Part shown: positions 3,377 through 8,446 of the stretch, piece by piece | Position numbering within the stretch: position 1 is the stretch's first letter | Layout: every line of letters begins with the position of its first letter | Source of the DNA: an uncultured Desulfosoma sp. | GTDB lineage: Bacteria > Desulfobacterota > Syntrophobacteria > Syntrophobacterales > DSM-9756 | NCBI GenBank assembly: GCA_937960435.1 | Contig: CALGPN010000028.1 | Span: 62,001 to 126,000 of the forward strand | Length of the DNA stretch: 64,000 nucleotides | Reading direction: 5' to 3' | Notes under the pieces: generated by a model | Databases searched by the model: none | Seen by the model: the letters and a program-made list of their open reading frames with translations, nothing else | Told to the model about the DNA's origin: nothing | Made by a program: the position numbers and the translations under genes

Positions 3377-3778
3377 ATGAGCAATCTGTTTACCATTTTT
3401 GAAAAGATTGCGGAACAACGGATTCAGGAAGCCATGGAAAGAGGAGAATTCGACAACCTTCCCGGTGCCGGCAAGCCTCTCAGCCTGGAAGACGATAGCC
3501 ATCTGCCTCCCGATTTAAGAATCGCCTATAAGATCCTCAAGAACGCCGATTGTCTTCCACCCGAGCTGGAACTGCGCAAGGAAATCCGAACGACGGAAGA
3601 GCTCCTTTCAGGGATTCAGGACACCCAAGAAAAATACCGCCAGATGAAAAGGCTCAACTACCTCATCTTGAAGCTCAACACGATGCGTCGGGTCTCGCCC
3701 TTGCTCGAAGAACACCAGGTCTATTATCCCAAGGTCCTCGATCGCTTGGCGAAAGAAAAGGAGAAAAAAGACCCGTGA
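3377..3778 (+). CDS. DUF1992 (DnaJ-homologue subfamily C28 conserved domain) protein
   Basis: 133-residue cytoplasmic protein with the DUF1992 signature: IFEKIAEQRIQEAMERGEFDNLPGAGKPL near the N-terminus, then LPPELELRKEI and a helical, lysine-rich C-terminus. The family is widespread (YhdN/DnaJC28-like) but biochemically uncharacterised. Start ATG 3377 has an AAAAGGGG ribosome site six bases upstream. Its TGA stop overlaps the GTG start of the following namZ gene (GTGA), so translation of the two is probably coupled. Confidence 0.85.
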   Translation: MSNLFTIFEKIAEQRIQEAMERGEFDNLPGAGKPLSLEDDSHLPPDLRIAYKILKNADCLPPELELRKEIRTTEELLSGIQDTQEKYRQMKRLNYLILKLNTMRRVSPLLEEHQVYYPKVLDRLAKEKEKKDP

Positions 3779-4986
3779 CGCCCCCCTCACAAAGCCTCCA
3801 GACCTGTCGGTTCGGATGTGATGTGCTTCTCGAGGATCCCCCTGCATGGCTTTTTCACAAGCGCATCGGTGTGTTGGCCAACCAAGCCTCGGTGACCGCC
3901 GATTTTACTCATGTCATCGACGCCCTGGTGGCTCGAGGAGCCCGGTTGACCGCCGTTTTCTCTCCGCAGCACGGTTTTTACGCCGAAAAACAAGCCAACA
4001 TGGTCGAATCCGACCACAGGCGACACCGGGTCTATGATGTGCCTATTTTCAGCCTTTACGGCGAGACCCGACATCCTACCGAAGACATGCTGGACCATAT
4101 CGATGTTCTCCTCGTGGACCTCCAGGACGTGGGGACTCGGGTCTACACGTATGGGACGACGGTGGGCCTGTGTGTGGAGGCCTTGCGCCGGCGCTCCATT
4201 CCGATGGTGGTTCTGGACCGGCCCAATCCCATCGGCGCCGATCGGGTGGAAGGCAATCCGGTGCGGGAGGGATACCGATCCTTCGTGGGCCGATACGCCC
4301 TGCCCATGCGCCACGGGCTCACACTCGGGGAGCTGGCTAGGTGGGTGGCGCGCGAGGAAGGCTGTGAGGGGATCGTGACCGTCGTCCCTGTGCAGGGCTG
4401 GGCACGAGAGGACTTGTGGCCCGCCACGGGTCGCCCGTGGGTTTTCCCTTCACCCAATATGCCTTCCTGGGAAACGGCTTTGCTTTATCCCGGCATGGTT
4501 TTGCTGGAGGGGACGAACCTGAGTGAGGGGCGAGGCACGACCTTGCCTTTCCAGCTGGTGGGCGCTCCTTACCTGGACCCGGACGCCGTTCGAGAAAACA
4601 TCGATCCCCGGGCTTTGCGGGGCCTTGTGCTTCGACCTGTGGAGTTTGAGCCGACTTTCGACAAATGGATAGGGCGGCTCTGCCGCGGCTTTCAGCTTCA
4701 CGTCACGGACCCCCGGCTCTTCCGACCGTACCGGTTCGGTTTGGCCTTTCTTCAGGCGGTCATGAAAACGCACCGGGACTCCTTCCGATGGCTCCCGCCC
4801 CCTTACGAGTACGAGAAACGGCATCTGCCCATCGACATTCTTATCGGGGATCTCGAGATTCGCGTCCGGTTGGAAAACGGCGAGCCGGTGGAATCACTGG
4901 AACAGAGGTGGCGCAAAGACCTGGACACTTATGAGGCGGGACGGCGTGGGATTCTCCTCTACGGAAAGGATGCGGAAGGGCATTGA
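3775..4986 (+). CDS. DUF1343 exo-beta-N-acetylmuramidase (NamZ family)
   Basis: 403-residue DUF1343 protein. Characterised members (NamZ of Bacillus subtilis) are exo-lytic beta-N-acetylmuramidases that release MurNAc from peptidoglycan fragments. Typical blocks are present: RIGVLANQASV, FSPQHGF, YGETRHPT, LLVDLQDVGTRVYTY, VVLDRPNPIG, PSPNMPSWETALLYPG and EGTNLSEGRGT. Unlike many extracellular relatives, there is no signal peptide from the GTG start at 3775, so it may be cytoplasmic or lack a recognisable leader. The start overlaps the stop of the DUF1992 gene by GTGA. Only 12 bases separate its stop from the convergent nadE fusion. Confidence 0.85.
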   Translation: MTPPSQSLQTCRFGCDVLLEDPPAWLFHKRIGVLANQASVTADFTHVIDALVARGARLTAVFSPQHGFYAEKQANMVESDHRRHRVYDVPIFSLYGETRHPTEDMLDHIDVLLVDLQDVGTRVYTYGTTVGLCVEALRRRSIPMVVLDRPNPIGADRVEGNPVREGYRSFVGRYALPMRHGLTLGELARWVAREEGCEGIVTVVPVQGWAREDLWPATGRPWVFPSPNMPSWETALLYPGMVLLEGTNLSEGRGTTLPFQLVGAPYLDPDAVRENIDPRALRGLVLRPVEFEPTFDKWIGRLCRGFQLHVTDPRLFRPYRFGLAFLQAVMKTHRDSFRWLPPPYEYEKRHLPIDILIGDLEIRVRLENGEPVESLEQRWRKDLDTYEAGRRGILLYGKDAEGH

Positions 4987-4998
4987 CACCGGCAGCAT

Positions 4999-6453
4999 TC
5001 AGCTTTCCAAAGTCAGGAGCACCGCCTCGGCCACTTCCCTCATGGATTTTCGGGTATCCATGCTCTTTTTCTGCAACCAGCGGTAAGCTTCTTCTCCGGT
5101 GAGGTTAAGGCGTGAAATGAGGATGTCCTTTGCTTTTTCGATGATCTTTCTCTTTTCCAGCTCTTCTTGAATGATTTTGGTCTTGACCATAAGTTCGGTG
5201 TTCTCGATGGCCACAGCCGCTTGGTTGGCCACGGCCGTGAGCACGTTCATCTCCAATTCCGTGAATCGATGGGGACGAGAAGTGTAACAGTTGATGACGC
5301 CGATGACGCGGTCCTTGACGCGCATGGGGATGCTCAGCATGGAGACCAGCCCAAGGTGTCTGGCCAATTCCTTTTCCTTGAAATCGGGGTCTTCCAGCAC
5401 ATTGAGCGCGATGTGGGGTTTGTTGTCCACGACGACTTTGCCGACGACGCCTTCCCCGACTTTGAGCACACGATCCCTCACGTATTCAGGATTGATAGCC
5501 TGCGTGGCCCGCAGTCGCAACACACGCTCTTGCTCATCCAAAAGCCATAGAGAACAGACGCTGGAATTCATCACCTCCGCCGTCACCATCACGATCAAAC
5601 GCAAAATATCTTCGAGATATTGATCCGACGTGATGGCCTTGCTGATGACCGTCAGCGCCTCGACGCTTTTGTCGGCCGGGCTGGCACTCGACGGCGGAGG
5701 CGTTTTTCCCGGCACCGCCTCACGCTCTTCATCGATAAAACGCAGAGGCGGGCGCCGCTTGTGAGCGGTTTGCGCGCGAAGCTCCTGAATGCGTTTTCTC
5801 ACGTTCTGAGGCACACCCGCCTCGCGCCCGCTCAAATAGCTGTCGAGTTGCTTGTACGTGAAGCCCAGATCGCCTTCATCCGTCTGACCAGCCCACAGCC
5901 CCGCCGAAGGCGGTTTGGTGATGAGGCGCCGGGGAAGTTTCAACACTCGAGCCAGCTTCTGCACGTCTTTCTTAAGCAGGTGGATCAAGGGCTGGATGTC
6001 CGCCGCGCCGTCCCCGTATTTTGTGAAATATCCGATTTCCCATTCACTGCGGTTGCTGGTACCCATGACCAAGAAGCCGAGTTCGGCGGCCTTGTGATAG
6101 AGGACGGTCATGCGCAGTCGGGCTTTAAGGTTTCCCACGAGACGGGGGTGGTTTGAACCCAGAGTTTCCGTCAGCCGATCCAGGACCGGCCCCAAGTCGA
6201 TCTCTTCACAGAGGAGGTCTAAATGTCCACAGACCATCCGTGCGTCCGAGAGATCCTCCGGGGAGCTGTGACACGGCAGGATAAGTCCGAGGACATGTTC
6301 TCCGAGAGCCTTCTTGGCCAGGGCCGCGCAGACGGCTGAGTCGATCCCGCCGCTGATGCCGAGGACCACTCCCTTGGCTCCGGTGTCCCGGACACTTTCC
6401 GCAATCCATTGGACAAGCCGGCTGATTTCCTTTCGTGCGTCCCCATCCGTCAT
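4999..6453 (-). CDS. nadE: NAD synthetase fused to GAF and ANTAR domains
   Basis: 484-residue fusion. Residues 1-240 are an ammonia-dependent NAD+ synthetase (deamido-NAD + NH3 + ATP to NAD+): the P-loop SGGIDS at 34-39, GTSNRSEWE at 131-139, and KPPSAGLWAGQTDE at 180-193, ending in the family's HKRRPP. A 20-residue Pro/Ser linker leads to a GAF domain (about 265-417) and an ANTAR RNA-binding domain (about 425-482, with EEAYRWLQKKSMDT). All catalytic motifs look intact. GAF-ANTAR proteins normally stand alone as transcription antiterminators, so the fusion is unusual. ATG 6453 has GGAG eight bases upstream; an in-frame ATG at 6549 would add 32 poorly conserved residues. It lies downstream of lepB and may be co-transcribed with it. 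Confidence 0.9.
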   Translation of the reverse strand: MTDGDARKEISRLVQWIAESVRDTGAKGVVLGISGGIDSAVCAALAKKALGEHVLGLILPCHSSPEDLSDARMVCGHLDLLCEEIDLGPVLDRLTETLGSNHPRLVGNLKARLRMTVLYHKAAELGFLVMGTSNRSEWEIGYFTKYGDGAADIQPLIHLLKKDVQKLARVLKLPRRLITKPPSAGLWAGQTDEGDLGFTYKQLDSYLSGREAGVPQNVRKRIQELRAQTAHKRRPPLRFIDEEREAVPGKTPPPSSASPADKSVEALTVISKAITSDQYLEDILRLIVMVTAEVMNSSVCSLWLLDEQERVLRLRATQAINPEYVRDRVLKVGEGVVGKVVVDNKPHIALNVLEDPDFKEKELARHLGLVSMLSIPMRVKDRVIGVINCYTSRPHRFTELEMNVLTAVANQAAVAIENTELMVKTKIIQEELEKRKIIEKAKDILISRLNLTGEEAYRWLQKKSMDTRKSMREVAEAVLLTLES

Positions 6454-6598: not shown

Positions 6599-7264
6599 CT
6601 AGTGAACGAGGTGCCCGATGCGATTCCATCGCACGTAAAACCGATTCGGGTCCACCGAGAGTTCCCCGTCCTTGTTCCACGACCAATAGATGATGAAGGC
6701 TTTCCCCCTCAGGGCCGATGCATCCACGAAGCTCCAAAAGCGGCTATCATAACTTTCATCCCGGTTGTCCCCCATGACAAAGAACCGGTGCTCGGGAACC
6801 ACCACAGGGCCCAAATTGTCCCGGGGGCTGACGGCCGCCGGCAAAATCCTTGGATCCGTGAACCGAACATACGGTTCATCGAGGGGTTTTCCGTTGATAA
6901 AAACCGTTTTGTCCTTTATGGATAGAGTATCCCCGGGAACACCGATGACGCGCTTGATGAAGTCTTTGGAAGGGTCCTGCGGGTACTTAAAAACGATAAT
7001 GTCCCCTCTTTGGGGCTGGTCCCAGTGGATGATTTCTTTGTCGACGACAGGCAGCTTGATGCCGTATCGAAACTTGCTCACAAGGATGTGATCCCCGATA
7101 AGCAGGGTGGTCATCATGGACCCCGAGGGGATTTTGAATGCCTGCACGATAAAGGCGCGGATAAAAAGGGCTAAGAGGACCGCGATCAGGATGGCTTCCG
7201 AATACTCGCGAACGGCACTTTTTTTCTGAACCTTGACCGATTCCTGTTTCGAAAAAACACTCAA
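6599..7264 (-). CDS. lepB: Signal peptidase I
   Basis: 221-residue type I signal peptidase, which removes signal peptides at the outer face of the inner membrane. One N-terminal membrane segment (about 23-41) is followed by box B with the catalytic serine, PSGSM (Ser49), then box D with the general base KRVIG (Lys104) and box E GDNRDESYDSR. The length and single membrane anchor match the short Gram-negative form. The start codon is TTG with a strong GGAGG five bases upstream. It diverges from the pil operon and is followed on the same strand by the nadE fusion. Confidence 0.93.
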   Translation of the reverse strand: MSVFSKQESVKVQKKSAVREYSEAILIAVLLALFIRAFIVQAFKIPSGSMMTTLLIGDHILVSKFRYGIKLPVVDKEIIHWDQPQRGDIIVFKYPQDPSKDFIKRVIGVPGDTLSIKDKTVFINGKPLDEPYVRFTDPRILPAAVSPRDNLGPVVVPEHRFFVMGDNRDESYDSRFWSFVDASALRGKAFIIYWSWNKDGELSVDPNRFYVRWNRIGHLVH

Positions 7265-7390: not shown

Positions 7391-8446
7391 ATGTTCCGAA
7401 AGCGTAAAGAATTGGTCGGCGTCGATGTCGGGTCGTATGCCGTCAAAATGGTGCAACTGACCGAGGGCAAGTCCCGTTACAGGTTGGAAAATTTGGGCAT
7501 GGCCTTGCTTCCTTACGAGGCCGTTTCCGACGGGCGCATTGCCAAGCCCGACCTGGTGGCGGATGTTCTTCGGAAGCTTTCGAAAAACTTAAAAATCAAG
7601 CCGGGTCCCATTGCCGCCTCCGTTTCCGGCTTCGAGGTCATGATCAAGAAAATCGAGATGCCCACCATGGCGGAGCAGGAACTGAGCGCCCGTCTTCGTC
7701 AAGAAATCGCCCAATACGTGCCGTATCAGCTGGACGAAGTGAACGTGGACTACGAGATTTTGGACGTGTCCAAAAGTCGGGCGAAATTCATGGACGTGCT
7801 TATTGTGGCGGCCAAAAAAGAGGCGGTTTCCGCTTACGTGGGCATGCTTCGCACGGCGGGTTTCGACCCCGTGGTCGTGGATGTGGATTACTTCGCTTTG
7901 AGCAACGCCTTTGAGGCGACCTACGGCGTTTTCCCTGAAGAAAACATTGTCTTAATGGACATCGGCGCCTCCAAAACAACGATGACCATCGTTCAGGCCG
8001 GCCGCCCCCTTTTCACGAGGGATCTGACTTTCGGCGGGCACAGCATCACCCACCGCATTGCCACGGAATTTCAGACCTCCATGGAAAACGCCGAAAGGAT
8101 CAAATTGGGACTCGGGTCGGAGAACGTCGATCGGGTTCTACTGGAAAAAGCTTTCGTCGAAACCTTGGCCGAATGGGGAACGGATGTCAGAAGAGCTTTG
8201 GACTTTTTCTTCAGCCACTTCCCCGAAGCCAAACTCCATAAGATTTTTCTCAGCGGCGGGTCGGCGAAGCTCCCAGGGTTGGGCAAATTTCTGGAGGCCG
8301 AACTGGGCATTCCGACCGAGGTGTGCAATCCCCTGCAGCACGTAGAGGTAGATGCGGGGCGATTCGATCCGGCTTACCTGGAACAGATCGGTCACCAGAT
8401 GACCATCGGCCTTGGACTCGCACTCAGGAGAGCAGGGGACAAATGA
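7391..8446 (+). CDS. pilM: Type IV pilus assembly protein PilM
   Basis: 351-residue actin-like ATPase of the type IV pilus inner-membrane platform. It carries the PilM opening VGVDVGSYAVKMVQL, the phosphate-binding IVLMDIGASKTTM block and IFLSGGSAKLPGL, as in the FtsA/actin fold. It is cytoplasmic and recruits the N-terminus of PilN. It is first in pilM-N-O-Q and its TGA overlaps the pilN ATG (ATGA). The operon probably starts from the 126-base gap shared with lepB; no convincing sigma-70 or sigma-54 promoter stood out there. Confidence 0.92.
   Translation: MFRKRKELVGVDVGSYAVKMVQLTEGKSRYRLENLGMALLPYEAVSDGRIAKPDLVADVLRKLSKNLKIKPGPIAASVSGFEVMIKKIEMPTMAEQELSARLRQEIAQYVPYQLDEVNVDYEILDVSKSRAKFMDVLIVAAKKEAVSAYVGMLRTAGFDPVVVDVDYFALSNAFEATYGVFPEENIVLMDIGASKTTMTIVQAGRPLFTRDLTFGGHSITHRIATEFQTSMENAERIKLGLGSENVDRVLLEKAFVETLAEWGTDVRRALDFFFSHFPEAKLHKIFLSGGSAKLPGLGKFLEAELGIPTEVCNPLQHVEVDAGRFDPAYLEQIGHQMTIGLGLALRRAGDK

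Follow-up and report, generated by a model that had tools for sequence, protein, structure and literature searches.

The stretch of DNA analysed here (the window; 64,000 nucleotides from an uncultured Desulfosoma sp.) carries on its minus strand a gene of 484 codons (positions 4999–6453) in which an NAD synthetase, NadE, is fused in frame to a GAF domain and an ANTAR RNA-binding domain. The single open frame of 484 aa starts with an ATG at 6453 and ends with a stop codon at 4999–5001; stop codons crowd the plus strand across 4999–6453 and leave no open frame there. The encoded protein consists of an NH3-dependent NAD synthetase domain (aa 10–236, positions 5746–6426; PF02540, E = 2.5e-70), a Pro/Ser-rich linker (aa ~243–262, positions 5668–5727), a GAF domain (aa 280–417, positions 5203–5616; Pfam E values of 1e-23 to 1e-21, also matched by Foldseek) and an ANTAR domain (aa 429–479, positions 5017–5169; Pfam E = 1.7e-19), all on the minus strand. 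The ATP-binding P-loop SGGIDSA (aa 34–40, positions 6334–6354, minus strand) is intact in the window protein and broken in five relatives. The NAD_synthase, GAF and ANTAR matches all lie above their cut-offs, and the score of 69.8 bits with PF03861 (cut-off 27.3), together with the GAF match, places the protein among the GAF-ANTAR proteins. A helix-turn-helix DNA-binding domain, as in NadR and NrtR, was absent from the Pfam matches up to E = 1. Frame and family matches thus confirm, with the gene on the minus strand, an earlier description made from the letters alone (the sequence-only reading), in which a single frame joined NadE to GAF and ANTAR domains through a Pro/Ser linker of 20 residues; the linker lies around position 5700.

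AlphaFold models of the fusion proteins are of moderate confidence (mean pLDDT 69–71) and are uninformative on domain coupling. The segment spanning the linker (aa 229–265), which is long and weakly conserved, has low confidence, and a long helix (aa 399–449) is predicted to precede the ANTAR domain. The GAF fold is nearest to that of PtsP (enzyme I-Ntr; Foldseek 3ci6, TM 0.88 of target) with ~26% sequence identity, and by fold and family matches the GAF domains of PtsP and NifA are among its nearest relatives.

The gene for signal peptidase I, lepB (positions 6599–7264, minus strand; PF10502, E = 8.5e-54), lies directly upstream on the same strand as the fusion, and a namZ-type exo-beta-N-acetylmuramidase gene (positions 3550–4986, plus strand; PF07075/PF20732) lies downstream in convergent orientation. 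Beyond lepB and divergent from it is pilM (positions 7391–8446, plus strand; PF11104). This arrangement is conserved: at all fusion loci the fusion gene sits between lepB, which adjoins it, and namZ, with pil genes beyond lepB. Elsewhere in the window, positions 2380–2652 hold short repeats that repeatedly encode the peptide GAGLPA and look like a small intergenic repeat array.

An uninterrupted fused frame was found in 12 of the 39 genomes of the order, comprising all eight genomes of the window's family and four of a neighbouring family. The carriers are a group of sulfate-reducing bacteria that includes Desulfacinum infernum DSM 9756, D. hydrothermale DSM 13146 and Desulfoferrobacter suflitae DRH4, together with one Desulfacinum MAG and several Syntrophobacteraceae MAGs. 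The other 11 fusions are 52–83% identical to the window protein and contain no stops, so that a frameshift joining two genes, a concern raised with the sequence-only reading, is excluded. Its second concern, that close homologues might have two separate genes, is also answered: close homologues are fused, and NadE and GAF-ANTAR occur as separate proteins only outside the fusion clade. Fusions outside the phylum were sought by one pattern-based scan of genome contigs. A literature search for NadE joined to ANTAR, or for a NadE pseudo-enzyme, found no relevant paper.

In separate trees for GAF-ANTAR and for NadE, the 12 fusions group together with support of 100/98–99, which fits a single fusion event. 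Orthologues of the GAF-ANTAR half are widespread as stand-alone proteins in the Desulfobacterota, mostly at 60–72% identity, and stand-alone NH3-type NadE proteins are ~50% identical to the NadE half. Where the fusion is absent, namZ comes immediately after lepB in four relatives (G013, G015, G017 and G031). In relatives from the class, the spot behind lepB is occupied by GAF-ANTAR alone (L064, L065, L070 and L091) or by nadE alone (G039).

The NadE half of the window protein scored 251.9 bits with TIGR00552 (cut-off 63.65), 236.8 bits with PF02540 (cut-off 21) and 252.4 bits with NF010587, just below the cut-off of 255. Its best solved relative is 2e18 (E = 2.2e-54), and it shares a fold family with the NadE structures 2e18, 3fiu and 1nsy. 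There is no nitrilase domain, and the tree groups the fusion with stand-alone NH3-type NadE proteins, apart from the glutamine-dependent copies. We checked 19 positions that are taken to form the ATP, magnesium and deamido-NAD sites in the NadE family. All 19 are present in the window protein, in keeping with the complete set of NadE motifs noted before, and all 19 are also kept in six relatives.

The remaining five fusions (G003, G009, G027, G033 and G037) retain only 5–9 of the 19 active-site positions. Their lesions include the change of SGGIDSA to RPEINSM or GGEINSS and the loss of PSAGLW-GQTDE; their GAF-ANTAR halves are 72–80% identical to that of the window. Very long branches lead to G003, G027 and G037 in the NadE tree. 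Both halves are under purifying selection in the intact lineages, and in most pairs NadE evolves ~3–9 times faster than GAF-ANTAR. In the degenerate lineages dN/dS of NadE is raised yet remains below 1, with dS saturated in most pairs. The domain has been neither deleted nor truncated there, and for the most decayed copy the modelled structure still matched NadE folds in Foldseek. Catalysis, at least, is therefore dispensable for keeping the regulator, NadE being degenerate in five fusions out of 12.

A second NadE-family gene, usually glutamine-dependent, is present in 11 of the 12 fusion genomes, the copies of G003 and G033 being cut by contig ends. In G002, a 99% complete genome, only a stop-containing remnant of ~85 codons is left of the glutamine-dependent nadE (L169, G002:C7), and the fused NadE is therefore the only recognisable NAD synthetase. 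These sequences are most simply read as a NadE half that is catalytically active in the window's lineage and whose catalysis sister lineages can do without; most likely, some lineages have a working enzyme there and others a pseudo-enzyme domain.

To our knowledge, RNA-binding regulators of the ANTAR type form a large class, few members of which have a known input signal. The dual-hairpin RNA motif that they recognise was defined for EutV, NasR and AmiR and was found for the most part ahead of nitrogen genes, glutamate synthase among them (Ramesh and colleagues, PMC3369931). When whole genomes were searched with PF03861, the fusion proved to hold the one and only ANTAR domain of each of the 12 genomes that carry it; the 27 others gave no match. 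An exact search with the core pattern of the leader matched only G033 among the fusion genomes, and a covariance model was therefore built from 14 leaders, that of G033 among them. With this model every one of the 12 fusion genomes showed a single leader locus, the leader of G007 being repeated on two contig ends. In the window's genome the leader lies on another contig than the fusion (G000:C58:3814–3883, E = 4e-6). When the window itself was scanned with model R1, nothing credible was found (best E = 2.8), which points to regulation in trans.

Leaders were thus present in 12 of 12 fusion genomes and in one of the 27 others (Fisher p = 3e-9, relatedness ignored). The one exception, G034, is an incomplete assembly that also lacks lepB, so that its missing fusion is probably an assembly gap. 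Downstream of the leader, every fusion genome has a glutamate-synthase-like gene (PF01645); in G002 (L128, G002:C4) this gene is broken and is followed by a glutamate dehydrogenase-like frame. The gene family occurs in 28 of the 39 genomes of the order, and many carriers outside the fusion group have it without the leader; the downstream gene alone was therefore rejected as the cause of the co-occurrence.

The leader of the window's genome contains a first hairpin, P1, with a 7-bp stem and the loop AACGGA, and a second, P2, with a 5-bp stem and the loop AAAGGC. P1 and P2 fold with a predicted energy of −18.2 kcal/mol, and a competing terminator that overlaps P2 (−23.0 kcal/mol) is favoured in the full leader. 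The layout of P1, P2 and overlapping terminator is the same in all 12 fusion genomes. Five of them (G004–G007 and G037) gave weak per-genome scores (E = 0.026–0.043), and their leaders were assigned by position and anatomy. With so little variation in the stems, the 13 distinct leaders offer scant covariation; the case for the target accordingly rests on anatomy, position and co-occurrence. With the hexaloops of the EutV, AmiR and NasR type, the fusion leaders have in common a G at loop position 4 and mostly an A at position 1. A departure from this ANTAR loop rule was observed in five genomes of the window's family (G001, G002, G004, G005 and G007; leaders L127, L128, L130, L131 and L132), in which the P2 loop starts with G instead of A.

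Because each fusion genome holds a sole ANTAR domain and a leader, protein and RNA are paired one to one, and this pairing is the strongest evidence that the dual-hairpin leader before the glutamate-synthase-like gene is the probable target of the fusion's ANTAR domain. As this leader is the only strong target in the genome, the output would be nitrogen assimilation and not the NAD genes. The sequence-only reading had proposed a moonlighting enzyme-regulator that could tie NAD status or synthetase occupancy to antitermination; the enzyme-regulator part has gained a conserved fusion, a full set of NadE sites and a probable target, and the expected output has shifted to nitrogen assimilation.

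Stand-alone GAF-ANTAR genes show a related arrangement. They are often followed by a gene for a glutamate-synthase-like protein (PF01645), a glutamine synthetase or a glutamate dehydrogenase, and in front of the glutamate-synthase-like or gdh gene there is frequently a promoter-like stretch as well as a canonical ANTAR leader, with P1 such as GCAC[AANGGN]GTGC, P2 GAC[AAAGGC]GTC and a terminator whose 5' arm overlaps P2. At one locus (L089, 13240–13400) two tandem ANTAR leaders (E = 0.0004 and 0.095) precede a glutamate-synthase-like gene.

Taking these observations together, we consider it reasonably probable that the NadE-fused protein is a nitrogen-assimilation antiterminator which binds its leader in trans, with the NadE enzyme probably acting as a second input and with catalysis lost in sister lineages. 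The GAF-ANTAR half, as a dimer, would bind the two hexaloop hairpins in the leader of the distant glutamate-synthase-like gene; with the second hairpin held by the protein, the overlapping terminator could not form and the gene would be transcribed. The GAF domain would sense a nitrogen metabolite, as the GAF domain of PtsP does by binding glutamine (PMC4848567). In the window's lineage the NadE half would form homodimers and synthesise NAD with NH3 as a substrate. Judging from where it sits in the protein, it probably passes the second input, in the form of ammonia, deamido-NAD/NAD or ATP occupancy, on to the GAF-ANTAR half and also supplies dimer contacts. Sister lineages would have lost catalysis from the enzyme half and retained the fusion. 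More tentatively, NadE may be a metabolic sensor in its own right, in which ammonia, deamido-NAD or ATP occupancy gates the action of ANTAR on the glutamate-synthase leader, so that one protein would be both NAD enzyme and RNA switch; in the sister lineages the domain would have become a dedicated non-catalytic sensor. NadE ligands could plausibly control RNA binding.

NadR and NrtR provide precedents in which an NAD-metabolism enzyme domain is joined to a gene regulator, and NrtR also shows that an enzyme domain whose catalysis has decayed can serve as a sensor. Both bind DNA through a helix-turn-helix domain, whereas the fusion combines a NadE enzyme with an RNA-binding output and an apparent nitrogen-assimilation target. 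Unlike the NadE proteins of TIGR00552, it carries a C-terminal GAF-ANTAR and has lost the active site in five relatives. With the antiterminators EutV, AmiR and NasR (PMC3369931) it shares the ANTAR domain, the dual hexaloop hairpins, the overlap of P2 with an intrinsic terminator and a target in nitrogen metabolism. Known ANTAR proteins sense through a receiver, NIT, PAS or GAF domain or through a separate sensor; the fusion adds an N-terminal NAD synthetase. GAF-ANTAR nitrogen antiterminators are already known, and the novel claim is that RNA binding may be modulated by NadE occupancy or dimerisation.

Two serious rivals to such coupling have to be weighed. Against the reading preferred above stand the degenerate NadE of five fusions, the long and weakly conserved linker, and GAF-ANTAR relatives that have leaders of this kind and work with no NadE attached. 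The first rival, which we regard as unlikely, is that NadE is a passenger. On this view nadE and GAF-ANTAR, as neighbours behind lepB, became one frame, and the halves are independent with no regulatory coupling, NadE being an enzyme where intact and a decaying tail elsewhere. The presence of each partner alone behind lepB in class relatives, the faster evolution of NadE and the loss of catalysis in five genomes are all consistent with this history. A useless tail, however, is difficult to reconcile with a degenerate NadE that is neither deleted nor truncated, keeps dN/dS below 1 and is still matched to NadE folds.

NadE enzymes are homodimers. The minimal RNA-binding unit in EutV is an ANTAR dimer (PMC3369931), and NadE could accordingly be a constitutive dimerisation platform that pairs two ANTAR domains on the dual hairpin, with ligand irrelevant. 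Retention of the fold where catalytic residues were lost agrees with such a scaffold. Yet the stand-alone orthologues manage without it, the predicted long helix could dimerise alone, and seven genomes keep every active-site residue, none of which a scaffold needs; we consider a mere scaffold distinctly improbable. An origin of the fused frame in misassembly or sequencing error has a negligible probability and found no support, being refuted by the uninterrupted frame in 12 independent assemblies, isolates included, with conserved synteny and one origin.

The NadE-ANTAR fusion is well supported as a structure and, as judged from sequence, as the regulator of one gene. It ties an enzyme with known substrates to an ANTAR domain whose probable RNA target is unique in each genome, which makes enzyme gating of antitermination directly testable, and the apparently catalytically dead natural fusions are ready-made controls. 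Under the antiterminator reading, NAD synthesis may be linked directly to ammonia assimilation, and an exaptation of enzyme to regulator can be seen at two stages within one bacterial order.

Other associations of nadE with GAF-ANTAR, which hint at an older connection, were observed further afield. In a distant Desulfobacterota family (L117, L161–L164, L166–L168; G384, G150, G272, G350, G227, G367, G203, G331), downstream of the GAF-GAF-ANTAR genes come a promoter-like stretch and a hairpin resembling P2 that overlaps a terminator; P1 is canonical in only some of these leaders. The next gene is a glutamine-dependent nadE in seven of the eight (G150, G203, G227, G272, G331, G350 and G384), and in this family nadE itself has the look of an ANTAR target. 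In three Omnitrophota genomes (L085, L087 and L088), a glutamine-dependent nadE, glnA and GAF-ANTAR adjoin without an R1-type leader. These links suggest that NAD synthetase, a consumer of ammonia or glutamine, has been placed in this nitrogen regulon more than once.
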